Assembly (NCBI RefSeq): GCF_932294415.1
Contig: NC_065535.1
Location: 94,008,862 to 94,072,861, forward strand
Source of the DNA: Quercus robur
Taxonomy: Eukaryota > Streptophyta > Magnoliopsida > Fagales > Fagaceae
DNA length: 64,000 nt
Reading direction: 5' to 3'
Of this stretch, positions 813 through 25,609 are shown in pieces (the first letter of the stretch is position 1; every line of letters starts with the position of its first letter). A program made the translations under genes and the position numbers. The notes below the pieces were generated by a model, which was given only the letters and a program-made list of their open reading frames with translations, made no database searches and was not told the DNA's origin.

Positions 813-821
813 GAAATGATA
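813..821. repeat. Left 9-bp target site duplication of the MULE
   Basis: GAAATGATA, matched exactly at 25601-25609. The match extends one more base (G) on the right of both copies, so the element boundary is uncertain by one base. Confidence 0.8.
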
Positions 822-1051
822 GATTTTCGTTGCTAAATAACCCTAAAATTCTAAGTATTTCGTTAGTTGTCCTGTTACGAAACAATTTGTAATAATAGCA
901 TCTCGAGTTTCTTAAACTCGAGATCCAATTTAAAAATCGAGCTTTTAAGACTCGTTTTTGTTGTTTTTCAGTTGCTGACATGGCGAAAGTTTCCACTTGG
1001 ATAGCGAGTTTATAAAACTCGATTTTGGAAATCGAGTTTTATAAACTCGCT
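822..1051 (+). repeat. Left terminal inverted repeat with palindromes
   Basis: This end aligns with the complement of 25600 downward: shared blocks include GAAACAATTT/TCAAACAATTT, the first palindrome, and GCTGACATGGC/GCTGAGGTGGC. It contains three palindromic units. The unit at 900-924 has 11-bp arms (ATCTCGAGTTT) around 3 bases. A degenerate one lies at 937-955. A perfect 23-bp-arm inverted repeat spans 1003-1051 around a TGG loop. Confidence 0.8.
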
Positions 1052-1079
1052 TTCGCTTTAATGCTTTTTTCCCTTCCCA

Positions 1080-1347
1080 CTTAAAACAATCTACAGAGAC
1101 CCGTTCAAAATCTCTCAATCTCAGACACCGCTCTCTCAAACTCTCTCAAACTCTCTCAAACTCTTCCCCTGACTGTGGAAATTTCAAAATCAACTCACTC
1201 TCTCAAACTCTCTCAAACTCTGTCAAACTCGCCGTGCCAAAGGTGGTTCTCCCATTGAGACTCAGCCACCGAAACTGAGTTCTGCTCCCATTGACAGTGA
1301 GGCACTCAAAGTCAGTACTGCTCCCATTGAACCACCGTGCGCCTAAG
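1080..1347 (+). promoter_or_regulatory. Probable leader exon of the PMD gene in the left terminus
   Basis: Just inside the terminal repeat is a CT-rich stretch with many copies of CTCTCTCAAA (1128-1230), ending at a good donor (CCTAAG then GTACTC at 1348). The right terminus has a similar stretch rich in CTCAAACTCTCACC at the same relative place before the transposase leader intron. This suggests that both termini supply a promoter and 5' leader. No transcript evidence is available. Confidence 0.45.
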
Positions 1348-3382
1348 GTACTCTCTCTTTCTCGAACTCCAATCTTAGGTTTTGGAGTTTCATGATGTTT
1401 CCTATTTCGTTTTTCAATTTCGGATCTTTCTGGGTTTTGGTTGTTCATGTCATTTCAGTGAATGCATGTATATTATTCTGTTTGGTTGTTTGGGAAATTA
1501 ATGTTAGCAAAACTGATTGAGCATTTGATTGGGTTTCATTAGTTTAAAAAGTGTTAATATCTGGATTACATTGATATTTAATCTAGTTTGTTGGGGTTTC
1601 ATTTGATTTGTTTGTGGGTTTTGTTTGATTTGTTTGTGGGTTTTGTTTGATTTGTTTGTGTATCTTGTTTCACGGTATTTTCACTGATTTGTTTTGGGTT
1701 TGTTTTAATTTTCTGATTGTATTGTCGTTTGTGGGTTTGTAAAGCAAATTATGGGTTTGATGAAATGGTTCTATGAACGGTGTATGAGTTGTGAAGTAAT
1801 AAGTGAGAATATTCATTTGAAAAAAATGAGAACTTACACCTAAAAAATAATGGAAGGAAATGGAGTCAACAAAACAATACATCTAAGAATTTTTTTTTAT
1901 TGGGTTAAAAATACTCAAATCAAGCCAAGGAACGAAAGATAAAAAAATATTAGTTGAAGAAGAGGATTATACCTGTGTTTGGAGTGTTTGGACCAAGAGC
2001 GATTCTGTGTTTTGCATCTCAGGATGAACCGGAACCTATGGATCTTATATAACATTGGTCCACAAATCTGTTTTCTGCAATTACATTTTTAATTTTAATT
2101 TATATTTACTTATCTGGGGGAAGGGAGGGAAAAAAAGAAGAAGAGGACGAGGATTATAAAAAAGTCTTTTTCAATTCTTAACCACCCAAAGGTTAGGAAC
2201 CTCATGTGTAACTAAATATTAAGAAGTTGATGCATTCGGGTGATTGTGCAGAGGTAACACTAAGCTGAAATTAGAAGTTAGAAGTTAGAAGTTAGAAGTT
2301 AGCTGTCCACACTTACTGCACCACCAACAACATAAAATTTAGAAGTCAAACACCATCAAAGAAATCTTAAAAAGTGGGAAACAGAGTCACACCTGCAGAC
2401 TTTTGAAAATAAAGTTTGATAACTACAGATCCAATGCTACAAAAACAAAAGCAGAAAGTTATAAATCTTAAATATGTATGATAAGATTGTACAAAAAAAT
2501 AATAGTAGACAATATAATTAGCCCAATAAACTCAAAGAGATGGTACCAGAAGAGAATGTAGAGCTGTTTCAGCTTGATTTCCAAGGAAATACTGCAGAGC
2601 CATAGCAGCATGCTCCTGCAATAGGAAAATGCTAAAATAAGTAGGAAGTTTTAACCACCTGAACTAGGAGATGATTGTCAAGATTTTTCTAACATCATTG
2701 TATCTGCAAAGAAAAGAAATAACTGAAATACATTTTCACTGGCCTACATAATCACTGAAAACATTTTCTTGATCTATATAAATATTTAAAGTCCATTATG
2801 CTCCAACCCTTCATCTGAAACTCTTTATTCCGCCCCCTACTCCACATATTTTAAATACAATGCTATAACTCACTACTTCATTCGGGAAAGAATTAAAACT
2901 ATATTGGACACACACACACACTATAAGTATCTATCAAAATGGGCATAGGGGACAAAAACTTGGCAAGATTCAAAATGTAGGGTAGTCGGATTACCCGTAA
3001 AGTAACCAGAGTTGTAAAATGTTACCACTATCCTTTCTTTTTCTCTTTCTTTGATAAGTATCTCTCTTTTCTTTTCTTGACAAATTAAGAAATTTTATTA
3101 GAACAGAAACGAATTCAGCAAATAGCATGTAATTTCTACATCCTATAAAGTGATCACATTTGAAAATTTAACTTATCATAATAAAATCCAAGAAAAAAAC
3201 ACAACAGATTATTGCCTAAAGCATGCAGCCAGTTTTATCATTATCCCTTCATATATTAGCCAAAAAGGCATAGCCAGATGGGTGGAAATATATTAAGAAC
3301 TATCTGTCAAACAAAAAATCCATAAATAGAAAATATCATTCTTCTGTAAGTTTCACTTTCTGGAATTATTTGTGCTAGCCTT

Positions 3383-3389
<7 letters not shown>

Positions 3390-3426
<37 letters not shown>
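3390..3426. repeat. (AT)n microsatellite
   Basis: About 18 AT units beside the captured channel exon. Confidence 0.95.
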
Positions 3427-3437
<11 letters not shown>

Positions 3438-3480
3438 AAACACTAAGGTAGAATTTTCAAAGGTGGAAAATTAGTCTCAC

Positions 3481-3757
3481 CTGTGCTGGGACCGCAACAG
3501 CTAGCCTTGCAGGAATATTCTTGGGATCAAGGATGAGGGAAAGCTGATATAAAACTGATCCAGAAAATACCGTTGCAAAGAAAATGTTCCATATTGTAAA
3601 CCAAAGGACTTTGTTACATGCACTCTTTTCTATATCACTATGAGAAACATATCCTTGAATAGATGAAAGCAACTCCATTATAGGAGGCACTATTTTCAGA
3701 AACAACTGAAGAATAAGACTGGGAAGGTATCCTGTAACTACTTCACTAACAAATGTT
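3481..3757 (-). pseudogene. Captured exon of an OSCA/CSC1-like channel (HYP1 type)
   Basis: On the minus strand an acceptor (GGGCAG) at 3758-3760 opens a 277-nt exon ending at a consensus donor (CACAG then GTGAG). It encodes a stretch with [20 protein letters not shown], then [19 protein letters not shown], then a hydrophobic helix and [17 protein letters not shown]. This is the membrane core (RSN1_7TM/DUF221) of hyperosmolality-gated calcium channels, closest in my memory to HYP1. Neighbouring exons of that gene (about 700 residues in full) are not found on either side. A single exon with splice sites and flanking intron, inside a MULE, is best read as a DNA-level Pack-MULE capture. It is not a functional gene here. 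Confidence 0.75.
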
Positions 3758-5387
3758 CTGCCCAAAAAAAATCATAAAATTAGTACTCTGTCACCAATAG
3801 ATTAAATAAAACAGGCATTAGATTTTCTCATGAAAACATTATAATAATAACAAATTAGATTCCTCTTGATTTTTAAGTTGCATATGGGCAATTAATAATA
3901 TCACCAAATCACCCCAAATATTCAATAAAATATCAGCCAAAACCACTGCAGTTTTCATCCCCCATGCCCCATGCCCAATGGTCATTTATTTTGCATGACA
4001 AAGATTATGCAATATGATAAGTTGATATATCATTCAATGATAACTAAAACTTAAGACTTGAAACTCTCATGCTCTTCAATCTTACCAATCTCATAGCAAG
4101 CTAAATAAGTGCAATCTCCTCCTTTAAATAACACATTAGAGATAATAAAATGAAGTTAAGCCTCTCAAGGACAGACATACAAGGGGGCACCATTTCAATG
4201 TTTGTGTACCTGAGCCCCCCAGAACTAATTACACCGACAAAAAATTTCTCCCATCCCCTTGAAATTTTCTGTATCAAGACTGCTTCAGTTTGACATAAGA
4301 TGCTACAGACACCTAAACAAAGTCCCTTTACAGGATGTCTAATTTATATAACGAAGCAGCTTTACTCAAATTTTCATCAAAGGTGCCTTCTCTCAGTGTT
4401 GTAGGGTTAAGCAGAACCAGTAAAGAAGTGTGCATTAAATTTTAGAAAGTGGAATGTAGACCATGCAGTTCAGTAAAGAGCCTTCATTTATCAAAATAAT
4501 ATACCCAGCCACTCTATTTAGTGATTCTGAACTCAAATTTAATCTGAATGACAATATTTATTATTTAAAAAGTACACAGACTGGGAACTCTGAGTAGATA
4601 TCCTTAATTAATAAGAGGAAGCATTACATGGGAGAAGTACAATCATACGCCTATGAGGAAGAGTCCTGTAGAATTAAGAAAGTCATTTACTAATTACATA
4701 GAAAGTCCGGCCAACTCTCAAGCTGTCTCTTTACAGCAATAGGGCTTAGATAGGGCCTTCATTGTTGTTTTGACTACTTTAGTGAACATAAGATCAAGGG
4801 GGAATCAAGTAACCAAGTTCCTTTCAGTCAATGGCAAAAGCCAGTAAGCCACGTACAACTAAAGCTAAAATGTACTACAAAAACCAGATTCTTATTTGTG
4901 TGGTGGCAACACCATAGATATGCAAAATTCAACTATTTTAGACGTCTAAATATCCATTTATGGACTTCAATCTAGTTATTACAATTCAATAAGGGGAAGA
5001 ATCATTCTGAACCATTGTTCAACCAATTGATAAGTGGCAGGAAACATGATACTCACACAGTCCATATATGTTCAACCAATTGATAAATAAGCATGCTAAA
5101 AGTTCATAACCAACACAAAGCAGAATTAATGAAAGTAGTCATTTTATTTGGTACAGAATTCAATTTCTTTTAATTGTAAAAGTTTACAAAATTATTCCAA
5201 CTCCAAAAAATTCATTATGTTTTTTTCTAACTTACCAATTCTAATTTCTTTGATTGCGTAAACATCATCGATTTGCATGTTTTTTGGTATGATTGCGAAC
5301 TTACGTTTTTTGAAGAAAATTCTATTTTACAGTAGCACTCCTTTGCCCCTACACTATTAATGATCTCACAGTTGCATTGTTTGCAGT

Positions 5388-8345
5388 ATGGAGCCTCGGA
5401 TTGATGAGGAGTTAGAGGTCTTGGACCCCGGTCCGCGTGAGAGGTCATTGTTGACACGACAGCCATATCATCGATCAGAGGCCATTTGGAATGGCGAGGT
5501 GAAATTTCTAGTTCTAACAACTGCTTTAATATTTACGTTGTCTTTGATTGTTAGTTAGCAAGTTCTTTCAATGTTGTATTTCTAGTTCTAACAACCGCTA
5601 TAATTTTGATCGATTTTGTAGGACTCGGGCCCACTTACGTGCCGTGGTCGCACTAAGGAGATGGCAAACGTTCAGATGCAAGATAATCGAGTCATTGATA
5701 TTATCAAATTGCTAAGGCTAGAAGGATTGTTTAGAGCCCCTTCAAGAGAGATAGACAATTGCCTAATATCGGCCCTAGTTGAGCGATGGCGGCCGGAGAC
5801 TCATTCTTTCCATCTTCCACATGGTGAGATGACAATCACCCTAGAAGATGTGGAGGTAATTTTTGGACTTCCGATAGACGGTGACGTCTTGGTTGGGCCG
5901 ACTGCTGTGGTGGATGATGGGGGTTGGAGGCGATTGTGTACGGAGTTGCTGGGTTTTAGTCCGCCGAATGACAATAAAACATTGGTGGGGCAAAGAATTC
6001 TCATCAGCCGACTTGTTGAGGCCGTTGCAGCGCCATTGCCTCATGACGCAACGGAGATGCAGATACACCGGTATGCCCGGTGCTATATGTTAGCGCTAAT
6101 AGGGGACAAACTTTTCATGGACAAGTCAGGAGATAGGGTGCATTTGATGTTCCTGGACTTCATGCGTAACCTTCGTGATCCGCCACATTATAGTTGGGGT
6201 AGTGGTTGCCTGGCCTGGTTATATAGGGAGTTGTGTCGGGCAAGCGAGAAAGGGGCATCGCAGATTGGTGGGGCGTGCACCTTGGTCCAGTATTGGGCAT
6301 GGGCAAGGTTGCCATTCTTGTGCCCGAGGATAGAGCCCCCACCTGGATGTGATTATGGCCCATGGCCATATGCTCCACTTGCATTTAAGTAAGTCTTTTC
6401 TTGATACCAAGTGTGTTCTGCAATGTACATTTTTGTGTAACTAAATTGTATTATTGTTCTTATGTTTTTTGCTTGCTTGTAATTGTAGGTGGGTGCGGGT
6501 GCCAAGCCCGAAGAGTAGACCATCCGGCATGGCCTTGGTCCACTATCGCGAGCTATTAGTTACAATGCAGCCAGAGCAGGTAATAATATTCAAAAAATTT
6601 GTTTGGTTATGATCATTTTCGTTAATAATATGATTGCTTCATCCTTTAACATATCTTTTGTTATAATTTTAGTTTTTTTACCCTTTATATATGTATTTTC
6701 CCTTGTTTCACATTTGAAGATGCTATGATAATTGTTTTTTTTTTTTCTATCGTAGATTGTGTGGCAGCCATACGAGGCACACTTCAGCCACCTTCCTGAG
6801 TTCTGCATTGCAGGGAGGGATATGTGGACAGCAAGGGTGCCGCTTTTGTGTTTTTGCATAGTAGAGAAACACCACCCAGACCGTGTCCTTCGACAATTTG
6901 GCTTGGCGCAGGAGCGGCCTGACCATGTTGTCTACGATGATAGGCTGCATAAAATCGACTTACGTGGGAAGGTGGAAAGGAATTGGAGGGAGGAGCATGG
7001 ACCGTATATCATTTCTTGGGAAATGAGACGACAACAAGTTTGTCGTGCACCTCCTTAGATTGGTGAGATGCCCCGCAATCATGCCTATTACGTCTGGTAC
7101 CGTCCGGTCAGTCGAAAGTATGTCGACCGCAACAGCGCTAAATTAGATATTATGGTAATGTGTTCTACTTACATTTGATTGCCTACTTCGTTTTACTTGA
7201 GTACATGTATGAACATAAAATCAATTTCTATGAATTTCTCAGCAAATCTGGTTTGCTTTGACTGACATGTAATGAAATAGTTTTTGATACATATAGTATT
7301 CTAATAGAACTGTTAGTTTTGAGTAGATTCATAAGTCTTATATTATTCATTCATTAATTGATACATAAATGATGTTGGTTCTTTCTCCGTTTCAGATTCA
7401 AAGCCATTTAGCGCTGTTGGCGATGCTTCCTGAAGGCAGCCAAGCTCACAACCATGTCCGGCGTATCCTAAATAATGTGGCTGGCCTTGGTGGTGGTCCT
7501 GCAGTAAATGAGCATGCAAACAATGGGGATGAGACTGAACTAGCAGCTGCTGCAACCCCAAGCACAAGTGCAGCACCCGTAAGTACACCGACCCGTGGTC
7601 ATCGTGCTACTACAAGCCCAAGCACAAGCGCAGCTAGGGGTCGTCTTCGGCCTGCTACAGCAACCCCAAGCACAAGTGCAGTTAGGGGCCGTGGTCGGCG
7701 TGCAACAACCCCTCGGGTTGTAACTACTCTTGAGATGCCTCCACCCATCCCGCAAGCATCTCCTCAGCCTGAGGTCCCTTCACCCATCCCATATGCATCT
7801 CCTCAGCCCGAGGTCCCTTCACCCAGCCCACCTTCGCAGCCCAATTTCGATGTCAGTATTGACCAAAATGTGACCCCTCCTATACTCCCCGAGACACCCT
7901 CATACCCACACACTGGCTCTAGTGCACCCACTCCTGGCCTCTACATAGAGCAGGATTACCCACCTACCACATCCTCATCTGACCCTCTAGGATCTCCGGT
8001 TGGGATTGACACTGTAGAGCCACATATTGATGTACCGGACCTTAATCGCCCTCATCAGGCCTCACCCCCACGAGGTAGACCGCAACGCAGTAGAAGAGCA
8101 CCCACGTGTGGGACAGGTGGACACAAAATAGGACACCGAGGCCCCGCTATGGTATGATAACTTTAATTTGAATGTAATAATATATTTTCTACTTCACTTT
8201 ACTCTTACCATTATGGAGAATATTGATTGCATGCATGTAATGGAATTTGCAGCACGATGATGACCCTAAGGTTGATGCCCCGCAGCCTCCTCCCCCACAC
8301 AAACATTACACGAGGGCTAAAAAACACAAAATTGGTGAACCTTGA
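5388..8345 (+). pseudogene. Plant mobile domain (PMD/MAIN-like) gene of the MULE, one in-frame stop
   Basis: Six exons fit with consistent phases: 5388-5498, 5622-6388, 6489-6579, 6756-7154, 7396-8151 and 8253-8345, about 738 codons. The first exon starts MEPRIDEELEVLDPGPRERS. Exon 2 opens with DSGPLTCRGRTKEMANVQMQ and carries the PMD core: VIDIIKLLRLEGLFRAPSRE, LISALVERWRPETHSFHLPH, GEMTITLEDVEVIFGLPIDG, then the Trp-rich GGACTLVQYWAWARLPF. Exon 5 is a low-complexity Pro/Ser/Thr tail with repeats such as ATPSTSA and SPQPEVPSP. PMD proteins include Arabidopsis MAIN and MAIL1 (silencing and genome stability), and PMD genes are known from MULEs and other transposons. Codon 101 of exon 4 (7056-7058) is TAG, yet the frame stays open and PMD-like after it (IGEMPRNHAYYVWYRPVSRK). 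The gene may therefore be recently inactivated, or make a shorter protein of about 424 residues keeping most of the PMD. Confidence 0.85.
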
Positions 8346-9100
8346 GTAAGTGCCTTGAAAATTATGTTTCATACTTTACATATTAGAAACTTTAGGATTT
8401 TAATTGACTTTCAATACATTACCATTTTAGTAAATGTTATTTTCCCTAGCTCATTTGATGATGTATGCAAATTTCTATTTATGTGTTATTCCAGGGTGGA
8501 AGTTACATTTTTGAGTTTGAAAATTTCTTAGATCTTCAAGTTTGTCGAGAGTTTGTGGGTAAGTCTCAACTATTATGCACATTACTTATTTCAAGCTTGT
8601 TGACCTATAATTATGTGTTGTCAATCTAGTTCAAAGGTTTAGACATTCTGTTAGGTCAGTGTAGTTGATATGGATCTTCCCCTTTGTAAATGCATGATGC
8701 AGAATAGACATTCTGTTTGGTAGTGGTCCACCTCTTGAGTTTGTAGTTTAAGGCATCTTATATATTTTTTGTAGACGTATATCTCAATTCTAATTCAGCT
8801 TTAGTTTAATCGAGATCTACTCTTGCTTTGGTTTATGACAAATATGATGCTCAAGAAATTTCTTAATATGATAAGCATTGGTTAATTTTTGTGCTAAACA
8901 AAGTTTGATTTGCATGTTTTAGGAATAATTCTATAAATCAGTATTGTTCTTTACTGGATGCTTCCATTTAAAGATATAGAAAACCTTGGATTGGTGATGC
9001 AATCCCTTATCCACATTACAAACTTCACTGGAAAACCAGTAGCTATCAAGCACATGGTAATAAAATTCCAATTTACAGAGTCATAAGCTTTCCTTAGGTC
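8346..9100. other. 3' flank of the PMD gene
   Basis: AT-rich, probably 3' UTR and spacer. A short stretch near 8975-9052 is open as RYRKPWIGDAIPYPHYKLHW on + with a possible donor after it; I do not recognise it. No other gene is seen. Confidence 0.3.
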
Positions 9101-9109
9101 TGCTTTAAT

Positions 9110-9760
9110 AGCACATCTACCTAGACCACAGCATACCTATTACTTGAGAAAGGAGGCTTCGGAGTTACCTTAGGATTAGTAACCTTCACTTGAGCTTGCT
9201 TTCTCCTTGAATTATCAGTCTTCACTACATCTACAACCTCCTTAGCCATAGGAACCCATCGTCTCTTAGTCATCCTCTTTGGATCAACCATTTCAGTATT
9301 ACCACAATTGGCAGCAGAGTGTCCAAAAAATTTGCATTTTGGACACTTCATAGGGATCCATGGGTACTCAATCCCAACAAGAAATTAATTACCATTCCCC
9401 ATATCAACTTAAATCTCCCTAGGAAACTCAGCCTCCAGATCAACATCCACAAAAACCTGAGTAAAACTGAGCCTTTGATTCACTTCAGTTACAGTATCAG
9501 TGTACAAAGGCCTTTCAACCCCACTGGCCACATGCCCTAAACAAATGTGATTCTAGTACTCCACAGGGAGATGAAAATTTTTATCCAAATAGGAATTTTC
9601 CTTAAAGAAAGATCAAGAAATTGCATTCTTGGCTGCCACTTACACAAGAAGATGGATTTGTTTGCATTTTGTGTCTCCCGCATGAATACCCCTTCTTTAC
9701 ACTCAGGTGCATTCACACAAGCTATTCTACATTCCTCTAGTATTACTTTCTAGCATTTTT
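9110..9760 (-). mobile_element. LINE (L1-type) ORF1 remnant
   Basis: Minus-strand translation gives a DUF4283-like segment followed by a zinc knuckle, CPKCKFFGHSAANC (CX2CX4HX4C), and a basic tail (DPKRMTKRRWVPMAKE). This order is typical of plant L1 ORF1 proteins. The rest of ORF1 is interrupted by stops, and no ORF2 lies next to it, so this is a fragment. It lies inside the MULE, so it came as a nested insertion or as carried DNA. Confidence 0.7.
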
Positions 9761-10218
9761 CCCTAGAGCTGTCAAAACTTCTGCAGAATGAATGCTTTAG
9801 TAGCATATTTTTAATCTATAGGCATGTGCAATATTGAAATAAGTGCATATAAAGTGCCCACATTCTGGTTTTTGGTTATATATTGACCTTATAGCCCCTA
9901 GATAAAGATAATCTGACATGTCTGTTTCCCAAGCTTGATGAGTCTCTTAGGCTAAGATCTGGATGTATGTGTTTGACTCTGATTAGAATCAATGCCTAGC
10001 TTGAACACTTTATTTTTGAAAACCTTAGGCCAAATCCTAGCCAAACATACATTGTTTCAGGTTGGGTTAGTTGAAACTTAACGATTGTTGTTCATATCAT
10101 TTAAAAGTATGGTTTTACCAGTATGAGACAAAGGTGTGCTCAAGTATTGAAGTTTTCAAGGTTGAAATGGACCTGAAATCAGGGATTGTGCTTAATGTAA
10201 TCTTCTTTATGTGCCAGA

Positions 10219-10465
10219 TCGAATAGAGGATGCAAACTGGCATCTCAACAAATTTGAACGTGCTGGGAAGACACATGCAAAGGCTTCAAAATTGGAGGTT
10301 TCAAGGAGTGCAAATGGTTCAGAGCAGAGTGTTGCTGCATCACCAAATGAAGAGATGATGGAAATCTCTAGGGACTGTTCTTCTACAGAAACAAATCTGT
10401 TTCACATGGTCTCATTCCAACAAGAAAATTTTGTTCAGACCAACTCCACCGGAGAAGAAATATGA
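10219..10465 (+). pseudogene. Unidentified terminal exon, probably captured host sequence
   Basis: Behind an acceptor-like TGTGCCAG, an open frame of about 80 residues (starting IEDANWHLNKFERAGKTHAK, Ser-rich afterwards) runs to a stop at 10463-10465. It reads like a last exon of a soluble plant protein. I do not recognise the family and found no companion exon. Its place inside the MULE suggests a captured fragment. Confidence 0.35.
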
Positions 10466-11882
10466 TACTATCCTTTGGTAAGTTTTTTCTTGGCTATGTT
10501 ATGTCTAGTGTCTAGTATAAAGTAAAAGAAAGAGATAAGAGAATCTTCTTTTCAGGAATAAGCAATAACTTTCTTACAAAAACTTCATGCTACCTAATCC
10601 TTTTGCTTTGCTTTCATTACAGAAAAAAATAAAAATAAAACAATTTAAAAACTACCTAAATAACTTAATGCTACTAACCTCTCTCCAATCATTTAGCACT
10701 TATGTGCCTCAATTTTCTGAATGTAAAAGTTTGTGAAGTTCTTGTTTTAGCTAGTGGATAAATATATTCATGAGTTTTTTGATAACAGCTTCATTTTATT
10801 TTATTTTTTAAAAGCATTTGGGCCTCTTCCAGTTCAAAAATAGCTTTTCTAAACATCTGTAACAAATAATGGAAACAATTATTATATCGATAGTTAATAT
10901 GTATTGTTATTACATTTTACATGCTATTATAAAACTCATTTATGGTTCATATTTTGTTCAGTTATGACAAGGGAGCCTCACAGGAGGCTGTATGTCATGG
11001 GATTCCTTTTGTCTGTTATTAATCATTTGCTACTAGGCTGTAGCATTAGCTCTTCAACTCTCTTCTCTTCATGCTCTGATAATGAGCATATCTAAGCCTG
11101 TTCATCCACAATATGGAGAGTTTCTGGATTTCCTTTTATCTCAAACTTTTCCCCTTTTATCTTATTTTGTTTGTAATATTAGTGTCTCAAAATGTTTCTT
11201 CAGTGCAATAACTTTGTTGTGGAACTCATCGGGATAAAATGGTCAACCTAAGCATTCTGGTCCACCTAGCTGGTTGTCAACCAAGTAGTGAAGTGCTGAA
11301 TTGGCTTAGGTGCATTGATACTGTGCACTGAAAGCAATGTTTATAATTATTCTACAATGCTTATAAGAAAGGGTGGAGGGTAAGATTGCTGGTTCAAACC
11401 CACTACTAGGTGCATTTGTAAACTCACCAATAATAATAAAAAAAAAGAAATAAGAAAAGCTTTTATATTGCTAACTACAAATGAATTTGAATATATAGAG
11501 TTATATATCTTTATTATTTTGTTTTTGAGAAACTAGAGCACAAATATCTGATTGTTTTGAGCCATTACTAATAGTTACAAGAGCAAAAATATTTCTTTTC
11601 CCCATTTATGTCTTTTCCTCTTGCAAATTTATTCATTCCTAAACACTATATAGATGCACATTATACATCCTTGCTAGAGTTCACAATTTTCCAGACTAGC
11701 TAAGTTAGAATCCTGGCTATATTATTTTTCAGTTTTACTTTTACCTAAAACAGAATTGGCCGGTGGTGGGGTACATGTTTGGGCTGAATAACCCCAAGTT
11801 GTCTTTAATCAGGGTTGTGAGAAGGTCTTTCCAAGCATCATGTTAAATATAAACATAGGAAACATCAATCTGTTCTTAAAAT

Positions 11883-11914
<32 letters not shown>

Positions 11915-13531: not shown

Positions 13532-13544
13532 TTGGAGGAGTTTT

Positions 13545-14721: not shown

Positions 14722-15070
14722 TTGTTTTTTTTTGATAAGTAAGAAAGATATATATTAAAAGGTACCTCATGAAAACACAAGGCAGAACAGAGAATAAGAC
14801 TGGAAACAAACAAAAAATAGAGACAATGAGATAACTGAAACAAGAAAACAAACGGAGACAACAAAGAGCATATTAATTACAGAGAAGATAACTACGGAAC
14901 ATAGGGATAGAATCACTAGAGGTGAGTCCCCAAGCCTTAGACCAATCAATAAGAGAGCCACTAAAATAAGCGAGCAACTAGTCATCGGACTTGTCCCTAT
15001 CCTGAAAAGTACGCCAATTACGCTCCCTCCAAATACACCACAATAGGCACACCGGAAGTAGATAAAAATG
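14722..15070 (-). mobile_element. LINE (L1-type) 3' end
   Basis: The minus strand encodes PVCLLWCIWRERNWRTFQDR, the conserved WRERN motif near the C-terminus of plant L1 ORF2 (zf-RVT region). It is followed by a short 3' UTR ending in TTACTTATCAAAAAAAA. The element is strongly 5'-truncated, as is usual for LINE insertions. Confidence 0.75.
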
Positions 15071-15895: not shown

Positions 15896-16230
15896 TCCTG
15901 GTCGATGCATGTTCTGGCGCTCATGCATACGGTGCTGAAGCAAATGCATCTTCTGCATCGAATGTTGACGAGCTTCATCAAGAAATCTCAGTTCGTTCAG
16001 CAGTAGTCATAATTCCATTGATTATTGTGTGGACACACACACATATTCCTTGGAGTATTTTCAAGAAAATCCAAAGAGGATGTACAAGAGAAGAAGATGT
16101 TGCTGGAAAAGCTACAAGTCAAAATGAATGAAGCAGAAGCAAAGGCCAACAAGCTTAAAGTGTCATTGGAGAATCTATGTGGTATACTAACAAGGTTTTT
16201 ATGAACTATATTTTGTTTTTATTATAAATA
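15896..16230 (+). repeat. Left arm of inverted duplication (SMC6-like fragment)
   Basis: This roughly 335-bp stretch recurs in inverted orientation at 17615-17949, about 95% identical by eye. In the better kept copy (minus strand) it holds an exon ending DELHQEIS at a GTGAGT donor, a short intron, and an exon encoding a coiled coil: KYIEEVQEKKMLLEKLQVRM, then NEAEAKANKLKVSLENLC. This resembles the coiled-coil arm of plant SMC6 (SMC5/6 DNA-repair complex), a tentative match from memory. The left arm has small changes at both splice borders. Confidence 0.6.
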
Positions 16231-17001
16231 AATGTGAACAAGTTGAGATCTGCTGGGTGTAGAGTGAAAATATGGATTGTAGATTGGTTTGCCCAGCTAA
16301 CCAATAAGATGGGAGGTCAGTTGAGGAAAATTGATGTTGTTGGGCGCTACCTCATTCAGATTTGGAAGGCCGTTGGGATGGATACTGATGGAGGGAAGGT
16401 GGAGTTTCTGCGGTCGTGGAACGATAAACCGAATCAAGCTCATGAGTACTAGCCTCTTGTGATGGATATAGCACAAAGGAATACGGTTTCAAGGATAAAA
16501 ACGTGAATTATGGTATGATGATTATTATTATTACTTTAATATGCTGGTGATGTAGTCGTTATTTTTACTTCTATTATATTTTGCTGCAGGTGTCGTCACA
16601 TTATGGGTCGAAGTGATGAGGACGAGTTCACTGCAGCACAAATGTTCTACCCACGCATGCAATGTGCTTATGTGTGGTCTTTATTTGTTTTGCTTACTCG
16701 TAATTTACAAACATGTTACCCAGTTTACAACAAGGTCAGGAGAAGATGTCGAAAAGTGATCCACTATCTTCAACTTTTATGGAAGATGACGAGGTAGGGT
16801 GCATGTATAGGGGTATCAAATTGCCATATAGGGGGCTACATACTGTTTTCTTTATTAGTTGCGCATAGCATAATGATACTGAAATCAACACCTAAATTCC
16901 TTAACTCTGTGCTCTACCATCTTTGTTCTGTCTATTTGTAGCGTGTAAGAGAACAGTTCAAGCATGACAATAATGCAAAAGATCTTTTGAAAAGAGTTAA
17001 G
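16231..17001 (+). pseudogene. Captured tyrosyl-tRNA synthetase fragment
   Basis: Four blocks read as cytosolic plant TyrRS. First, NKLRSAGCRVKIWIVDWFAQ, then LTNKMGGQLRKIDVVGRYLI and a VEFL block (16234-16450). Second, after an intron with TGCTGCAG acceptor, CRHIMGRSDEDEFTAAQMFY (16591-16680). Third, QGQEKMSKSDP with the class I KMSKS signature (16729-16797). Fourth, RVREQFKHDNNAKDLLKRVK (16942-17001). There is a stop after HEY in the first block, and the 5' end abuts the SMC6-like arm at 16230. Introns are kept, so this is DNA capture, not a retrocopy. It cannot make an enzyme. Confidence 0.75.
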
Positions 17002-17089
17002 GTATGGTTGATTGGCTTTTAAAATTAATTTCTTTTAATAATGCGTTTTGAAAATGTTAAGAGTGAGAATTAGCAGTTGCACATATAAA

Positions 17090-17245
17090 TCGTGCCTTGA
17101 ATCAAGCCTTGCTCTAGTGGTCTGAATTAGCAGTTGCACTAGTGGTCAAGCCTTGTTGCAATGACAAGTGCCTTTCACCAAAAGAGGTTGTGGGTTCAAC
17201 CTTAACCACTGAAAAACCCCACAAATATAACTAAGTTTTGTGCAC
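17090..17245 (+). mobile_element. SINE-like element
   Basis: The sequence contains CTAGTGGTCAAGCCTTG and, downstream, AGAGGTTGTGGGTTCAACC, which fits a tRNA-type B box (GGTTCAA). Part of the start is duplicated just upstream. A short, probably 3'-truncated SINE is the best reading. Confidence 0.4.
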
Positions 17246-17614
17246 TTAGTACTACGACGTTGCAGCCAGTTGTATTCCTTCATTGAGAAACATAGTCGTT
17301 TTAGGCAAGTATTAGATTCAATGTTTTTTAAAAAAAAACTATTATGACATACATATTCAAAATTTCAATTGCATTGGGTTTTGATTAGAATGATTGCGTT
17401 ATTTGTAGGCACAGATATCACTGTTATATCAAACCTCTGGAAGCATTGGAAGGTGAAGAGTCCAGGAAAAGAAGGCAGACCGCTTCTTCATCATGTAGGG
17501 CTTGTTCAAGCTTTATCAGATCATGTTCTACTTTTTCCTACGATATATATTTCCCATCGTCTGATTGCGCTCTAACATACCCTTATGGAAGAAAAATGTC
17601 TTCAATGATTGGAA

Positions 17615-17949
17615 TTATTTATAATAAAAACAAAATATGAAATGTAAAAACCTTGTTAGTATACCGCATAGATTCTCCAATGACACTTTAAGCTTGTTGG
17701 CCTTTGCTTCTGCTTCATTCATTCTGACTTGTAGCTTTTCCAGCAACATCTTCTTCTCTTGTACCTCCTCTATGTATTTTCTAGAAAATACTCCAACGAA
17801 TATGTGTGTGTGTCCACACAATAATCAATGGAATTATGACTACTGCTGAACTCACTGAGATTTCTTGATGAAGCTCGTCAACATTCGATGCAGAAGATGC
17901 ATTTGCTTCAGCACCGTATGCATGAGCGCCAGAACATGCATCGACCAGG
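17615..17949 (-). repeat. Right arm of inverted duplication (SMC6-like fragment)
   Basis: Inverted copy of 15896-16230. Here the exon borders are intact: donor GTGAGT after HQEIS, acceptor TTTCTAG before the KYIEEVQEKK exon, and GTATAC after ENLC. The retained intron shows that the capture was at DNA level. Confidence 0.6.
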
Positions 17950-18548
17950 GAAAAATTGATAAAGACATAAATAATGTAAGTTGGATTTACATTTGATAAA
18001 GACATACATAATGAATGATAGATTTTTGTTTTTTGCATTATATGGGAAATGTGATAAAATTATTCTGTTTGTGATTTGTATTAGGTACCATCATGACGAT
18101 TTCAAAGGACCGAGTAAAGCCATCCCCAATGCCTGACAGTTGGAAGTTAAAAGGGTGGATAACTTTCTTTTCCGTGCCATTTCTTAGTGTGATTGCAAAT
18201 TTTGTATAGAGCGAACAATGTATTGAGATGTGGATATTTAAGCCTTGATTGGCAGGAATTTTATGTTTTGTATAGAGAGAACTATGTAGTTGATACATTT
18301 TTTGGATCAAAACCTTGTGTCTCATATTATTTGGAGTTAAGATCATTTCACTATATTGTGAAAAGCACTCATTTGGTGTTATGGAGTGGAATAGTTTATT
18401 CAATGCAATGCATCTATAGGTTACTCATATTTAATAGTTTATTCAGAAGTTTTTCCCTTAAACAGTTATAAAAAGCTCATTTGTAGAGAAGAACAACAAT
18501 TGTGACCTTTAAAATTTTTAAATACATAAAATAAACAAATTTAAATTT

Positions 18549-19139
18549 CCAGTGGAACTCGAGTCTATGAAACTCGAGTTCCACTGGTGCCTCTCTGACT
18601 AAACAGAGCAAAACGGAGGAAAAAAAATTCCAGTGGAACTCGAGTCTATAAAACTCGCGAACCATCTGGAACTCGAGTTTCATAGACTCGAGTTCCACTG
18701 GAAATTTTTTTTTCCCCCTTGGTTTTGCTCTGTTTACTCAGAGAGGCCCAATAGGGTGCTCTGTTTTTTCCAGTGGAACTCGAGTTTCATAGACTCGAGT
18801 TCCACTGGAAAAAAATTTTCCCTTGGTTTTGCTCTGTTTACTCAGAGAGGCCCAATAGGATGCTCTGTTTTTTCCAGTGGAACTCGAGTTTCATAGACTC
18901 GAGTTTCACTGGAAAATTTTTTTTCTATGTTTTGCTCTGTTTACTCAGAGAGGTCCAAGAGGCTTGCTCTGTTTTCCTCTGTTTTTCCCAGTGGAACTCG
19001 AGTTTTATAGACTCGAGTTCTAGTAGGAAATTTTTTCTCCTGGTTTTGCTCTGTTTACTCAGAGAGGTCCAAGAGGCTTGCTCTGTTTTCCTCTGTTTTT
19101 TCCAGTAGAACTCGAGTTTCATAGACTCGAGTTCTATGG
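18549..19139. repeat. Array of six long perfect or near-perfect hairpins
   Basis: Units at 18549-18587, 18630-18701, 18770-18808, 18874-18912, 18988-19027 and 19102-19139. A typical unit has 16-bp arms CCAGTGGAACTCGAGT and the exact complement, around a 7-base loop (TTCATAG type). Spacers of about 65-75 bp repeat TTTTGCTCTGTTTACTCAGA. From 18770 on the units are direct repeats every 104-114 bp. The first spacer is inverted about an axis near 18665. The array lies between the convergent genes, 3' of the transposase. Its CTCGAG core is shared with the terminal palindromes of the same MULE. Confidence 0.85.
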
Positions 19140-19771
19140 AAATTTTTTTTTTTTTTTTGTTTTGCTCTGTTTTCCTCTGCTCATTCCAGGAATCATTCAC
19201 TGGGGAATTTTTTCTTTCATTTTTCCTGGTTATGCAGACAAACCAGAAACTGAAACGTGTGCAAGCACCAGGTGAGAAGCAAAGATAAACAAACTACGAA
19301 TATAATCCATAAACCCTCATTTAGAGGCAAAGAAGCTAAGAATGTAAATACACGTACATTACATCAAACGAAACTACTAAAACTTCTACGCTCTCTGTAT
19401 AAACATGGTTTTACAATGCAAAATGCAGTTACATCGCAAGAAAAGGCATTCTCAATATCAACATCCTAAACATGCCCAACCACGCTTAATTTGCAGTTCT
19501 AACCATACTATTGAAATCACAATCTTCATAGGCATACATTCAATAGAGATTTACAAGTACATTCAACAAAAACCAAAAAGTTCACATAGACCCAATACAA
19601 CGTAGTCACTTTTCCTAACATCGGCTGTCCACACAACAAAAACATCGTCCTTGGAAGCATGCCTGAAAAACGTAGAGTAATCACATTAGGGGAAAAGATA
19701 GTAAACATTAGGTCAACATAGAATGAACAACAAATATTTAACCGATGTATAAGTATTTGCCATCTACCTAC
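19140..19771. other. 3' flank of the transposase gene
   Basis: Probable 3' UTR and spacer of the minus-strand transposase gene. I see no further coding sequence and no clear terminator signal. Confidence 0.35.
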
Positions 19772-22561
19772 CTAGTGTGGAACATGACCGCTTGTGGAAG
19801 CGCCACGGGACTGCGGACATTTTCTGCGGTTATGACCAGAAGCATGACACAGTCCACATGTCTGCTTGGACTGACTCTCTATCAAATCTGCATCCTCCCT
19901 CCGCCATCCCGGTTCTCGAACCTTATTCCTCACTCCATCCATCTCATTCCTTATTCTCGACTTCACTGGTCGACCTTTGGCCCGCAACAATGCTGGATTA
20001 GGCAACCACTTTGGCCCTATGGGATCCCTCCACAAAGCCATCGACTTAGGAACCACAAATGCATGCTCATAAGTGTTAATGGCATTGTTCAAACCATAAC
20101 ACGGGTGAATAAATGTGGTCGAATCAATATTTAAATAGTCACATACTCTAATTGCATGTGAACACGGGATCCCTATGTTTTGCCATTTCCCACAACTGCA
20201 TGTTCTTTCCTGTAACCGAACTTCATAACTGTGGTTTCCCCCTCCTGCACTACACGTGTTGATTTGGGTAACTATTTGAAATATCAGCTCTTCATTGCTA
20301 AATGGCTTGAGATAATGTTTCTCAGATTTGCTCTTATTCTCATCCCACTTGAAGAAGGCATATTTACTCCATTTCTTACCCTCTGAGAACTCAAAAAGGT
20401 ATTCTTTGCGACGGTCGTGGAAATAACTGACAAGTTTGTTCCAAGTGAACTCAACCAACGCGGCAATAGGAAGGCCCCGTGCACCTTTCAATACACCATT
20501 GAAGCACTCTGATATATTGGTTGTCATTGCCCCAAAACGTCTCCCACCATCATGTGACTGGGTCCACATATCCACTGACTCGCCCATTAGGTATGTGTAT
20601 GGAAGATAATCTTGATTCTTTTCCTTGCCATCCTTCCCCGTCAACTTCTTCTTATTTCTAATGGCCTCAATTTCCGCCTGCTTAATGGTCTCCATTATGG
20701 AGGTAAATTTCACTGCCTGACTAGCATATCCAGCTTTCAACGCCGCTGACTTCAGAGTCGAGTTCTGAAAATGTGTGTTAAAGTTGCTAGCAACATGTCG
20801 AAGGCAATATCTATGAAATACCAGTGCTCTTCCATCATCCCTTCTAGGCCAGTTTGCAATGGCGTTTTTGATACCGAGATGTCGGTCAGAAATTATGCAA
20901 ATGCCTTCGTTAGGTATCACGCGGCCAATCGCATCTCTGAGACATTGTAAAAACCACCTCCAACTAGACCCTGACTCAGAATCCACAATAGCAAAGGCAA
21001 GAGGGAATACCTTGTTGTTAGCGTCGGTTGCCATTGCAACCAACAACTTTCCCTGATATTTACCATACAGATGAGTCCCATCAATACTGATAACCGGCTT
21101 GCAATATTTGAATCCATCAATGCTTGGACCGAAAGACCAAAACACATAATTCAAAAATACTGTGTCATCTTCACCGGTGGATGTGGTACGATAGAACACC
21201 TGGGTAGTCGGATCCTGATCAATATATGCCATTAGCAACTTTTGCAACCTTTGATAAGACTCTTCCCAATTCCCAAACATCTTCTCAATCGCCTTTTGTT
21301 TCGCATCCCACACCTTGTAGTAAGAAGGCTTTTGTCCCTCATATTTCGACTCTATCATAGATCTGAGATGCTTAATTGGGGTAGTGTGATCCTCACATAA
21401 CTTCTTAAGGATGTCATCTGCAATAAATTTACAACTCATCATTCTACCATCATTTCGCACCCCAGTCCGTATACACGTGTGAGGACCCTTGTACACGGTG
21501 ACTATCCATAGATTGTGGAACTTGGGCTTCTTGACTACGCAGACATACCACGTGCATGACTCATCAACACATTTCGCACAAAGTTTTGTCGTGGTTGACC
21601 TACTGATCAAAAAATGTTTGTTTTCCTTGAGGGCACACTTTGTTAATACGCGTTGCACCTCCATTTTATTGGCAAAAGTCAAGCCTTTGCACAAATTCAT
21701 CCCCTCAATCCAACTAGACACAAATGGTGTCTCAATATGTGAAGGATCAACAAAATTTTCCCAAGTATTTTCATAAAATGACAAGGCAGGTGGTGAGTAC
21801 ACAGGGATTGTGTCCGTAATGTTTTGGACACTAAGAAAATTGTATGCATCAGGTTGACTACCTTCCAATGTCTCATCGTCATCAATGTCCCTCTCAAAGT
21901 CCCTAAAGTCCCCTTGTTCAATCCTGTCTTCAATCTCATCTCTATCGCCAAAATCTTCACCATTAATGGCAATATTTTCATCAACATAGTCATCATCATC
22001 ATCCTGATCCTCGTCCTCATCATCATAATCATCATCATTCTCATCCTTATCCTCATCCTCATGATCATCATCATCATCATCGGCATGAACATCTTCATCG
22101 GCATGAACATCAGCATGCTCTACATGTGTAAAATACTGGTATTGAGCATCTGGAACTGTAACTTGTAAACTTGTTTGTGTTTGTTGGATTTCCTCAATAC
22201 TAACTTCTGCACGTGGCTCCAACTGTATGTACAACTCAATGTTAGTTACTTCAGGTATTCTCTCCAACTTGTCAAACATGATCTTCACATGTTTGTCTGA
22301 TTCTATCGCCATGTACTTGTAATTAATCCGGTGCTTCAGGATTTCATTTGGCATGCGATAAGTAATGTGTATGTTGTGCACAGCAGGGTTCTCACACAAC
22401 TCTTCCATAACCATCATATTCAATTGATCAAGGGTCTTCAACCTACGATCAATTTGGGTATAATAGGTCTTTATACCCGGCCCTTCAAATGGCAATCCCT
22501 TGTTCGCATTGGCATTCTTCAACGGACCACCGTGGTATATGATTATATCAATTTCAGGCAT
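19772..22561 (-). CDS. Mutator-like (MURA-type) transposase, intact 929-residue frame
   Basis: A single uninterrupted exon. Order of parts: an N-terminal ubiquitin-like/PB1-like region (1-120), a long Asp/Glu tract (about 151-235), a WRKY-GCM1/FLYWCH-type zinc finger (C331, C336, H361, C363), and the MULE DDE nuclease core. Candidate catalytic residues are D494 (ISIDGTHLYG), D559 (IISDRHLGIK) and E685 (TNISECFNGV). Then come a SWIM zinc finger (C788-S-C790 with C800-S-H802) and a C-terminal zinc knuckle CGLCHASGHNRRKC (902-915). The enzyme would bind the element's ends and cut and rejoin DNA in the nucleus. The acceptor TGTAACAG lies 8 bases before the start codon, so the leader is spliced. 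Its length and complete domain set suggest a young or constrained gene. It converges on the PMD gene. Confidence 0.95.
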   Translation of the reverse strand: MPEIDIIIYHGGPLKNANANKGLPFEGPGIKTYYTQIDRRLKTLDQLNMMVMEELCENPAVHNIHITYRMPNEILKHRINYKYMAIESDKHVKIMFDKLERIPEVTNIELYIQLEPRAEVSIEEIQQTQTSLQVTVPDAQYQYFTHVEHADVHADEDVHADDDDDDHEDEDKDENDDDYDDEDEDQDDDDDYVDENIAINGEDFGDRDEIEDRIEQGDFRDFERDIDDDETLEGSQPDAYNFLSVQNITDTIPVYSPPALSFYENTWENFVDPSHIETPFVSSWIEGMNLCKGLTFANKMEVQRVLTKCALKENKHFLISRSTTTKLCAKCVDESCTWYVCVVKKPKFHNLWIVTVYKGPHTCIRTGVRNDGRMMSCKFIADDILKKLCEDHTTPIKHLRSMIESKYEGQKPSYYKVWDAKQKAIEKMFGNWEESYQRLQKLLMAYIDQDPTTQVFYRTTSTGEDDTVFLNYVFWSFGPSIDGFKYCKPVISIDGTHLYGKYQGKLLVAMATDANNKVFPLAFAIVDSESGSSWRWFLQCLRDAIGRVIPNEGICIISDRHLGIKNAIANWPRRDDGRALVFHRYCLRHVASNFNTHFQNSTLKSAALKAGYASQAVKFTSIMETIKQAEIEAIRNKKKLTGKDGKEKNQDYLPYTYLMGESVDMWTQSHDGGRRFGAMTTNISECFNGVLKGARGLPIAALVEFTWNKLVSYFHDRRKEYLFEFSEGKKWSKYAFFKWDENKSKSEKHYLKPFSNEELIFQIVTQINTCSAGGGNHSYEVRLQERTCSCGKWQNIGIPCSHAIRVCDYLNIDSTTFIHPCYGLNNAINTYEHAFVVPKSMALWRDPIGPKWLPNPALLRAKGRPVKSRIRNEMDGVRNKVREPGWRREDADLIESQSKQTCGLCHASGHNRRKCPQSRGASTSGHVPH

Positions 22562-23539
22562 TGTGAACCTGTTACAGTCAAGTTACTATGTTAGTTAACA
22601 AATCCATCTATCCTTCCTATATACAAGAGGCTAATTACAGCAACATGGTATGAGAGGTAAACACATGTAAAGCAAAAGATAATTGCAAATGCAATTTTTT
22701 TTAACACATACAAAATTGCAAAACATAATGGGGGACTAAATAATTGCAAAAGATATATCATTGTAACACAAACACAGCCACATGGATGTAGTTTCCAGTG
22801 TCATGTAATACTTGCATTTTTTTCCCTTTACATTCTATGAGGAGCTGTAACATTTTCTTTGATCTTTTAAGATTCTCAATCATAATTTTATTACCTGTTA
22901 CTAACTTATCATAATCAAGGGCTGTTACATTGGAAGGCTTGGTTTATCTTCATTTTTTCATGAGGATAATTTTCTTCTTCTTTATCATTATAGATGAGAG
23001 AAGACTGTAACTGCCCCTCTCTAGGTTACTATTACAGGCTTAAAAGGTTAGAAAAAGGTTCCCTAAGCAATTGTTTTTAGAGAATAGCACAAATACTCAA
23101 GTGCCAGATGAACCCTTCTGTGTCACAGGCTCAAGGACACATCCAAGAATTCAATTTAGGGAAATTGTGGAAAGATGTGTTTCATCTCTCAATAAATTGA
23201 TCAAGAGGGCAGACTGTATCTTTTCACCCACAGTTTGTACCATAGTGATGCAGCCTGAATAAGGCAGCAAAGATGACGTGTTTGCTGTAAACAGCAGATA
23301 AAGGCTATAAGGCAGAAAAGGGAGTCAGTAACCCCAGAAATAAGATTAATTTTCTGTCAAAAATAGCCAGTTTTCTTCAGATTATTACTTATTTATAAGA
23401 GAAGCAATGCCTGACTAGTCAAAGACACATAATAAATGCTAGACAGCTGACAATACATTTAGAGATTGGAGCATCAAGTGGAATTATGCTGATGTAGGAT
23501 ACAAGAGTCATAGATAAACTTGAAGAGGCAGTAAGTGAT

Positions 23540-24320
23540 TTTTCAGTTTATTCTTGATTTCAAAATGTGGTTGATGGTTTTGAATGGACTTTTTTTGGAG
23601 TGTATGATCCTAATGCAGATGCAAATAGATAGCAGCTTTGGGAAGAATGGGCAAGGGTATATAGTTGGTTGGTGCATAGGGGAGGCTTTCAACATAATTC
23701 CTTTTCCAAGCAAAAGGATGAGCTTTAAGAACAATGGTAAGGATGTGGCATTTTTCTGGAGTTTATTTCAGAACATAGCCTAATGGACTTACCATTGGAG
23801 GAAGGTGTTTAAACTTGGTCAAACGATCATGGTCACCCATCAATGCCCAGGTTGGACAAATGTTTGATCTCACTAGCTTTGGAAGAACAATTTCACTATT
23901 TGAATCAGAGATTTCTTCAAAGATCATATTCAAACTGTTTTCCCATGTTACTTGATGGTAATGATATCAACAAGGGCAAGGGCTTATTTACATTTGAAAA
24001 TATGCGGTTAAGAACTGAGGGCTTTGTGGATAAAGTGAGAAATTGGTGGGGGAGTTATCACTACCATGGGTCTCTTAGTTATATATTGGCTTCGAAACTC
24101 AACTCCTTGGAAGACAATATGAGAAATAGGAGTAAGGAGACTTTTGGAGATGTGACAGTATGGAAGAAACATTTATTGGTGCTAAATGAATGGAGGAAGA
24201 GGGATGCCTGATTGTTGAAGTTTCTTTTATTCCAAAAAATATCGGGGCTTCAGATGCTAAAGATTATAGGCCGATCAGCCTTATTGGTGGCGTCTATAAG
24301 ATTGTGGCTAAAGTGCTAAC
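23540..24320 (+). mobile_element. LINE (L1-type) ORF2 remnant
   Basis: Several short frames on + read as L1 ORF2. One has the end of the endonuclease and the linker (DKCLISLALEEQFHYLNQRF, VRNWWGSYHYHGSLSYILAS). Another has the start of reverse transcriptase, FIPKNIGASDAKDYRPISLI followed by GGVYKIVAKVL. Pieces between are missing and frames change, so it is dead. It lies in the transposase leader intron. Confidence 0.7.
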
Positions 24321-24690
24321 TACATCAATTACCTTAAATAAATTAAATGGTTTAAATTATTTAGTTTGGACACACGCTATGATTTGAAGCAACATAAGCG
24401 ATATTGAGAGGAATATATGATTACTACATTACTGTCTGCCTTAGATTCTGATCTACATGGTTTTAAAGAGCAGATTCTTTCTAGTGAAACCCTCACTTCA
24501 GCTGCCAATGTTAATTCTCATTATTGTGCTCATGCTTAGGCCAAGGTTCTATTGAGACAACCATAGTCTTTTGCTTTAGTTTCTAGCATTGGAGGTTGTA
24601 ATAGCTTCTAGTGGTAATGGTTGTAATGGTGGATGTGGTGACAACAAGTGCTCATTTGGTGGTATGAATTGTACTAAACGTTATTGTTGG
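24321..24690 (+). mobile_element. Fossil of a Ty1/copia-type gag region
   Basis: A short stretch resembles the N-terminal gag motif of copia-like elements (KLNGLNYLVW type), followed by sequence like the Gly/Asn-rich gag tail. No LTR, protease or polymerase is seen. A decayed, broken fragment next to the LINE remnant. Confidence 0.45.
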
Positions 24691-24936
24691 GTGAATTAGT
24701 AATAAATCAAAGAAAATATAACAAATAATATATAGCTCAAATGACATGCAAGCCAATAAAAACATGGAATTGAAATCAACAACAAAAAGATACTACAAGA
24801 AGAACATCTTATATTAGGAAAAAACATGGAGTCATTGGAAAACCCATAAAGTCATTGGGAAGTTCTCTTAGTGGCAAAACCCATACACAACTAATACCCA
24901 ACTACAATAACAATCAAATCAAAAAACCCATACCTG

Positions 24937-25190
24937 AAATATGAAATTCTTGAGAGGGAAGAGCAGTGAGAGAGGCAATGTGGTGAGTGAGAGTGAGAGG
25001 TGTGAGAGTTAGTGAGGCTAAGTGTATGGGTGAGAGTTGAGGATGCTTTGTTTTAGGGTGAGAGTTGAGGATGCTTTGTTTTAGGGTGAGAGTTTGAAGA
25101 TACTGAGTGTGGACTGAATAATCTATTCCCAGGAAATACCTTTCAAAACTACTGTTATCTGTTTTTGACTGTGGACGGAATAGAGTTGTA
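24937..25190 (-). promoter_or_regulatory. Probable leader exon of the transposase gene in the right terminus
   Basis: Read on the minus strand this is rich in CTCTCACCCTAAAACAAAGC repeats (two direct copies near 25030-25090) and CTCACTCTCAC, ending at the donor at 24936. Position and composition mirror the leader at 1080-1347. Confidence 0.45.
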
Positions 25191-25370
25191 AAATAGTTCC
25201 ACCAGAACTCGAGTCTTATAGACTCGAGTTCTGTTCAAAGTTAACTACATTGTTTGGATAAGTAAATCTCGAGTCTTATAGACTCGGTTTGCGCCACGAA
25301 AAACTCGAGTCTATAAGACTCGAGATCCCTTGAAATTATTATTATTCTTATAATTAAATCTCGAGTCTTA

Positions 25371-25600
25371 TAGACTCGGTTTGTGCCAAGCGAAACTCGA
25401 GTCTTTAAGACTCGAGATCCGCGTGGCAATTTTTGCCACCTCAGCAGTGCAGAACTAATGGAAAGCGAGTTTATGAGACTCGGTTTTTAAGTTGAATCTC
25501 GAGTTTCAAAAACTCGAGATGTTAGTTTTCTAAATTGTTTGAAAACGTGCCTAACTAACTAATTTGAATGGTTGAACGAATCTGATTTGCACAATACCTC
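25371..25600 (-). repeat. Right terminal inverted repeat with palindromes
   Basis: Read inward on the minus strand this matches the left end. Its outer palindrome (25496-25520) has the same ATCTCGAGTTT arms as 900-924. Further CTCGAGTCTT...AAGACTCGAG units continue inward at 25392-25418, 25298-25326 and 25206-25231, so this end has more palindromes than the left one. The inner limit is approximate. Confidence 0.8.
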
Positions 25601-25609
25601 GAAATGATA
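25601..25609. repeat. Right 9-bp target site duplication of the MULE
   Basis: GAAATGATA, identical to 813-821. Its distance from the inner terminal palindrome (80 bp) matches that on the left (78 bp), which makes a chance match unlikely. Confidence 0.8.

Follow-up and report, generated by a model that had tools for sequence, protein, structure and literature searches.

How does a DNA transposon of nearly 25 kb hold together as one mobile unit, and has it any use for the PMD gene that it carries opposite its transposase? These questions are raised by a 64,000-nucleotide stretch of the Quercus robur genome (assembly GCF_932294415.1, contig NC_065535.1, forward-strand positions 94,008,862 to 94,072,861, or G000:C2:94008862-94072861 in our notation; hereafter the window, whose positions are given without a prefix), which we followed up with searches of the whole 786-Mb assembly (42 contigs). 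We find that positions 822-25600 are a single inserted copy of a Mutator-like element (MULE), 24.8 kb long, in which a PMD gene and a transposase gene converge from two unlike ends, and that comparisons with a sister family point to PMD as a gene of the element kept by purifying selection. The overall explanation that we favor, with a probability of about 0.7, is a two-gene, autonomous-type, cut-and-paste MULE family with PMD as an accessory; for the structure and the selected gene taken on their own, we regard the case as close to certain.

Delimitation of the element and joint movement of its ends

A sequence-only reading of the window had proposed a single 24.8-kb MULE with convergent PMD and transposase genes on the strength of identical 9-bp flanks, related inverted ends, a palindrome common to both ends, and two inward-reading genes, and each of these observations holds. 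The target-site duplication GAAATGATA occurs at 813-821 and again at 25601-25609, giving defined ends with a 9-bp duplication, within the 8 to 11 bp expected of MULEs. The left terminal region (822-1060, plus strand) is an imperfect inverse of the right one (25190-25600, minus strand): positions 880-958 and 25462-25540 are 78% complementary, and when the outer 239 nucleotides (nt) of both ends are aligned with gaps, 174 of 262 columns match. Likeness is weak in the outermost 58/60 nt (10 of 500 shuffles scored equally well), and the terminal inverted repeats are thus imperfect, about 240 nt long, and weak in their outermost 60 nt. The same palindrome, ATCTCGAG...CTCGAGAT, occurs near both ends, 78 and 80 bp inward of the tips; the left region has a CTCGAG palindrome at 902-922 with degenerate forms at 1004 and 1032, and the right region has four 21-bp palindromes (ten CTCGAG). 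From these ends, genes recognized with Pfam read inward, PMD on the plus strand and the transposase on the minus strand.

Further copies with both ends, which that reading had suggested looking for, are numerous. We queried the whole assembly with the right end (421 bp) and, independently, with the left end (579 bp), obtaining 88 and 72 matches, respectively; as these were drawn in each case from the best 40 candidates, the counts are lower bounds. Taking the best 30 matches per end and requiring a partner within 60 kb in the correct orientation, we found the two unlike ends paired at at least 25 places; five left-end matches, all distant and partial, and five right-end matches had no partner. 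The paired copies are 4.8 to 41 kb long, 14 of the 25 falling between 23 and 33 kb. Exact target duplications flank 15 of them (4 of 9 bp and 11 of 10 bp, the window copy thus having the less common length), four more have a duplication with one mismatch, and six have none, the left match stopping short of the tip in three of these six. Wrong pairings of the same flanks, used as a control, gave no duplication in 600. Divergences at the left and right ends are also correlated (Mantel r = 0.676; 0 of 5,000 permutations; computed on 21 of the 25 copies after setting aside four whose ends were partial or distant). The pairing, the duplications, and the correlated divergence together show that the unit is real and that its two unlike ends move together.

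Could the ends instead belong to different, nested or abutting elements paired by accident? They are not identical, and an internal palindrome array at 18.5 kb (see below) looks like a terminus. Against this stand the 25 oriented pairs, the duplications, the correlated divergence, and the retention of both ends by interior-poor copies, and we reject accidental pairing as having a negligible chance of being right. In none of the 25 end pairs does the left end delimit a shorter element that closes with another right end. Two copies, at C4:40.24 Mb and C6:5.51 Mb, have lost most of the interior and keep both ends, the leader regions, and exact 10-bp duplications, with the C6 copy additionally retaining short 5' pieces of both genes; they were either mobilized by a transposase from elsewhere or deleted after insertion. 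At C37:19102301-19104987, two oppositely oriented right ends are separated by 75 bp. Next to the outer of these stands, in reverse complement, the left flank of the element at C37:19070363, which suggests an inversion.

The interrupted target could be reconstructed for a relative only: this single assembly holds no empty site for the window insertion, and one is evident for a family member that bears both genes in damaged form. This relative (C4:69104824-69117127) has a 10-bp duplication, one stop in its transposase, and a PMD gene whose 3' exons are deleted; since the equivalent of 7056-19176 is missing, only 1.26 kb separates PMD exon 2 from the transposase. It interrupts an NLR gene: its flanks carry NB-ARC and LRR domains (Pfam), and when joined with one copy of the duplication kept, they form a single open frame. 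Paralogues span the joint in 36 of 40 matching rows, 34 of the 36 within C4:67.9-69.6 Mb; the other four are the relative's own two halves and two partial rows. These rows are not equivalent to separate genes, as some adjoin each other.

Convergent PMD and transposase genes

The transposase open reading frame (ORF; 19772-22561, minus strand) is uninterrupted for 929 amino acids from the first Met and has the composition of a MULE-type transposase, with DBD_Tnp_Mut, MULE, and SWIM domains (PF03108, PF10551, and PF04434, all above cut-off). A leader exon can be read, approximately, at 24930-25000 on the same strand, with a donor near 24935. Full-length stop-free versions occur in four copies, including that of the window, at 99-100% identity. 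On the plus strand, the PMD gene (5388-8345; Pfam PMD, E = 1.5e-49) is modeled by reading as six exons with 738 codons (5388-5498, 5622-6388, 6489-6579, 6756-7154, 7396-8151, and 8253-8345), the five intervening introns all being GT..AG, and is preceded by a predicted leader exon at 1080-1347 (start approximate, donor GT at 1348). In the copy at C2:93.03 Mb, the 738-codon frame is open throughout and covers profile positions 7-347 of 347. A comparison with solved structures gave no match to PMD better than E = 0.36.

The 25 paired elements comprise 13 with both genes, six with the transposase only, two with PMD only, and four with neither, and in all 13 that carry both, the genes converge. We extended this comparison to 49 transposase loci (55 rows with fragments merged) and all 148 PMD rows. 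A PMD match lies within about 45 kb of 31 loci and there is none at the other 18; the nearest match is convergent at 29 of the 31. At one of the remaining two (C37:19.09 Mb), a nearer PMD match is on the same strand, yet the element's own PMD is convergent, and at the other, the nearest PMD is divergent and 37 kb off. The same layout recurs in a sister family (about 85% identity in the transposase and 91% in PMD) and at two loci with 58-59% and 63% identity. Relatives of PMD exon 2 number at least 148 in the whole assembly, many of them 61-65% identical and without stops, which suggests that further high-copy PMD-bearing families exist.

Selection on the two genes

Nei-Gojobori estimates of the ratio of nonsynonymous to synonymous divergence (dN/dS) were made for both genes. 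For PMD exon 2, the window copy against two sister-family copies gives 0.219 (0.126-0.393) and 0.218 (0.115-0.398); the copy at C37:8.76 Mb against the same two gives 0.32-0.33, and the window against C37:8.76 Mb gives 0.40 (0.18-0.91). For the transposase, the corresponding values are 0.362 (0.283-0.469) for the window against the sister family and 0.41 against a stop-containing copy at C37:22.55 Mb. Synonymous divergence (dS) is 0.21-0.23 for PMD and 0.22 for the transposase, the similarity expected if the two genes descended together. As judged from these coding comparisons, both genes are shown to be under purifying selection between the sister families, and PMD appears to be constrained about as strictly as the transposase and to be a selected gene of the element.

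CTCGAG palindromes

The window contains 28 CTCGAG sites, of which 25 lie inside the element, all in three clusters: two sites at the left end, 13 in an internal array (18558-19131), and ten at the right end. Most are paired into a 21-bp palindrome. The internal array, just downstream of the transposase gene, consists of seven such palindromes, one of them degenerate, largely in 104-114 bp tandem units. Of the three clusters, the interior-poor copies (C4:40.24 Mb and C6:5.51 Mb) retain only the terminal two. The end palindromes fit the role of candidate transposase binding sites, and the internal array could be a second set of these. An interpretation of the array as the hidden terminus of a shorter transposase element, although the array was not itself used as an end in a search, is disfavored both by the 25 left ends that pair with the outer right end and by the two interior-poor copies, which keep the outer ends without the array.

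Captured host DNA and the size of the element

Part of the size of the element is accounted for by acquired host DNA. The segment 2669-5019 (2.35 kb, minus strand) comprises exon and intron sequence of an RSN1_7TM channel gene, which we take to be OSCA/CSC1-like, and lies antisense within the predicted PMD leader intron. It is 98.2% identical over 2,351 columns to a non-element locus at C3:64.95 Mb that carries the RSN1_7TM domain (Pfam) and is taken as its probable source gene. Five of the 25 elements have this segment, and a different 1.65-kb segment occupies the same place in five elements and at one further locus. At the right joint of the channel segment, a short stretch, TTCAACCAATTGATAA, has a second occurrence about 60 bp beyond it, as might result from copying while a break was repaired. 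Inverted repeats of 349 bp (95% identity) at 15883-17963 surround a weaker, tRNA-synt_1b-like fragment (16228-16500; Pfam 22.5 bits, cut-off 21.1); the sequence between the arms, in which this fragment lies, is present in 17 of the 25 elements, and the unit might represent an older element or have arisen by foldback capture. The element thus shares with Pack-MULEs the host gene fragments inside its ends, and it departs from their non-autonomous state in that its transposase ORF is open. At 8930-9121, mid-element, there is a weak minus-strand RVT_1 match (E = 0.0024, below cut-off).

Relation to known elements

Maize MuDR, of about 5 kb, has two convergent genes reading inward from its two ends, with mudrB as the second. 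The window element resembles it in this convergent pair and differs in that its second gene is PMD (found with Pfam, mudrB itself not being compared) and in its length of 24.8 kb. The sequence-only reading knew of no element with exactly this layout and size, and on both counts there are precedents. In the classification of Dupeyron et al. 2019 (PMC6446971, Table 1), PMD is entered for groups 42 and 45-50, and as antisense in most of group 50, "MUDR". The window element shares with groups 50, 42, and 45-49 a MULE transposase with SWIM and a 9-10 bp duplication, and with group 50 also terminal inverted repeats in the 30-320 bp range and a PMD opposite the transposase; the table is without element sizes, and the likeness to group 50 is one of described features. 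As to size, a 17.7-kb grape MULE (Mutavine-1/Mudravi1) is described in PMC2528002; like the oak family, it is very large, with many copies and short terminal inverted repeats, whereas in oak 14 of 25 paired copies reach 23-33 kb, and both the second gene and the selection acting on it have been resolved. The sequence-only reading had also overlooked the premature PMD stop of the window copy (see below), the predominance of 10-bp duplications in the family, and the host-gene segments.

Other MULEs with an accessory gene offer partial parallels. Ikeda 2017 (PMC5418596) describes PMD-C proteins fused to MULE transposases in grasses and Amborella and proposes an anti-silencing use. These too are MULE-borne PMDs, but in oak the gene is a separate, convergent one with six predicted exons; the anti-silencing idea, already printed there, is not new. 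Nicolau 2020 gives genic PMD-C as the main form in eudicots. In VANDALs, VANC proteins recognize motifs that recur across the non-coding parts (PMC5735166), and this system is like the present one in having an accessory gene beside a MULE transposase and a short repeated motif in non-coding parts. Scans of 800-5620, 8158-18500, and 22583-25600 in all six frames, with stops written as X, and of the long ORFs of 5620-8158 and 18500-22583 revealed no VANC-type Pfam family, this being a domain search in which no VANC sequence was compared. Abermu (8.2 kb; PMC9168764) also has an extra ORF opposite its transposase, with Ka/Ks below 1, but its ORFR is of unknown function, and no occurrence of "PMD" was counted in that paper.

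MULE PMD genes have thus been tabulated and an anti-silencing use proposed before (PMC6446971, PMC5418596). What is added here is a resolved family, 14 of whose 25 paired copies are 23-33 kb, together with evidence for selection on PMD. In the literature searched, which did not extend to subscription papers or Repbase, we found no demonstration that selection maintains a MULE-borne PMD as a separate element gene. These DNA transposons of 23-33 kb have exact target duplications despite a review's statement that transposition efficacy falls markedly above 6 kb of cargo (PMC6431247). Having many precisely bounded copies, some with open genes and others broken, as well as a candidate binding site, the family makes the role of PMD testable.

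Role of PMD

On the reading favored here, the transposase, encoded from the right end, would act on the two unlike ends and produce the 9-10 bp target duplications, presumably by cut-and-paste movement as in the known biology of the family, and PMD, encoded from the left end, would support the element in trans. As the window copy has an open transposase and a truncated PMD, full-length PMD protein would come from other copies. As an accessory, this protein could sustain expression of the element, either by disturbing the host MAIN/MAIL1 silencing complex or by mimicking it. Counter-silencing is our leading guess, held tentatively and at somewhat less than even odds, because published work places the host's own PMD proteins, MAIN and MAIL1, in silencing and gene expression (PMC5418596, PMC8616336). 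A narrower form of it is a long shot: PMD would be a sequence-specific anti-silencing factor at the 21-bp CTCGAG palindromes, an analogue of VANC of unrelated origin in which a type of host-silencing protein has been turned against silencing, and a few intact copies supplying it in trans would keep the 23-33 kb family active. If so, PMD-broken copies such as that of the window would be served by the intact ones.

The purifying selection is compatible with a function in the element without saying which, and a mudrB-like helper role fits the gathered data equally well. PMD, with the position and orientation of mudrB in MuDR, would then aid efficient integration rather than counter silencing, and the constraint on it is equally compatible with such a role. 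For mudrB itself, PMC9168764 cites a crucial part in new insertions. Accounts of the host's MAIN and MAIL1 concern silencing and gene expression (PMC5418596, PMC8616336), and we found nothing that links PMD to integration; we consider a helper role possible and rather doubtful. It is also conceivable that PMD recruits host silencing onto the element and so limits damage to the host. Host MAIN and MAIL1 promote silencing (PMC5418596), and tea PMD genes are reported to yield phased small interfering RNAs (PMC10673657), but selection on a self-restraining gene in a multicopy element should be weak, and we consider this role improbable.

Several points weigh against a selected PMD, and some of them would suit unused cargo, a host gene captured as in Pack-MULEs, in a family that does capture host DNA. 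A premature stop interrupts the window PMD in exon 4 (codon 424 of 738), within the final residues of the Pfam domain, which spans 75-439 in the C2:93.03 Mb copy. PMD exon 2 finds no match in ten of the 25 copies, among them some with exact duplications, which would be expected if the needed functions act in trans and equally if PMD is dispensable. The selection test compares five PMD and four transposase sequences, and the intervals for the two genes overlap. In the closest pair, window and C2:93.03 Mb, residue changes outnumber synonymous ones: exon 2 has two nonsynonymous differences and no synonymous one, and the whole gene has 11 differing residues (including the stop) against three synonymous codon differences. 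Constraint is thus seen between families and not within the youngest subfamily, and within the window's own subfamily it may be relaxed. Against the cargo explanation, however, stand the dN/dS of 0.22 between sister families, with an interval well below 1 and a dS like that of the transposase, the convergent layout at loci of 58-63% identity, and the existence of an open 738-codon copy; we disfavor it as improbable and retain PMD as an accessory of the element. As a separate observation on the stop, the deletion in the C4:69.10 Mb relative (region C4:69111000-69112350) begins within a few bases of the codon at which the window copy stops (around 7051-7058), which may be a coincidence or reflect a preferred truncation.

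Surroundings of the insertion

The sequence left of the element (1-812) holds a minus-strand host reading frame. It begins with MAASLLPSQSHTH and looks plastid-transit-like by eye; its ATG is at 758-760, which places the element about 61 bp upstream of a likely host start codon. Just outside the right end, at 26130-26226, there are degenerate palindrome-like repeats resembling the terminal motif. Further along the window, an F-box gene fragment lies on the minus strand at 58174-58950.

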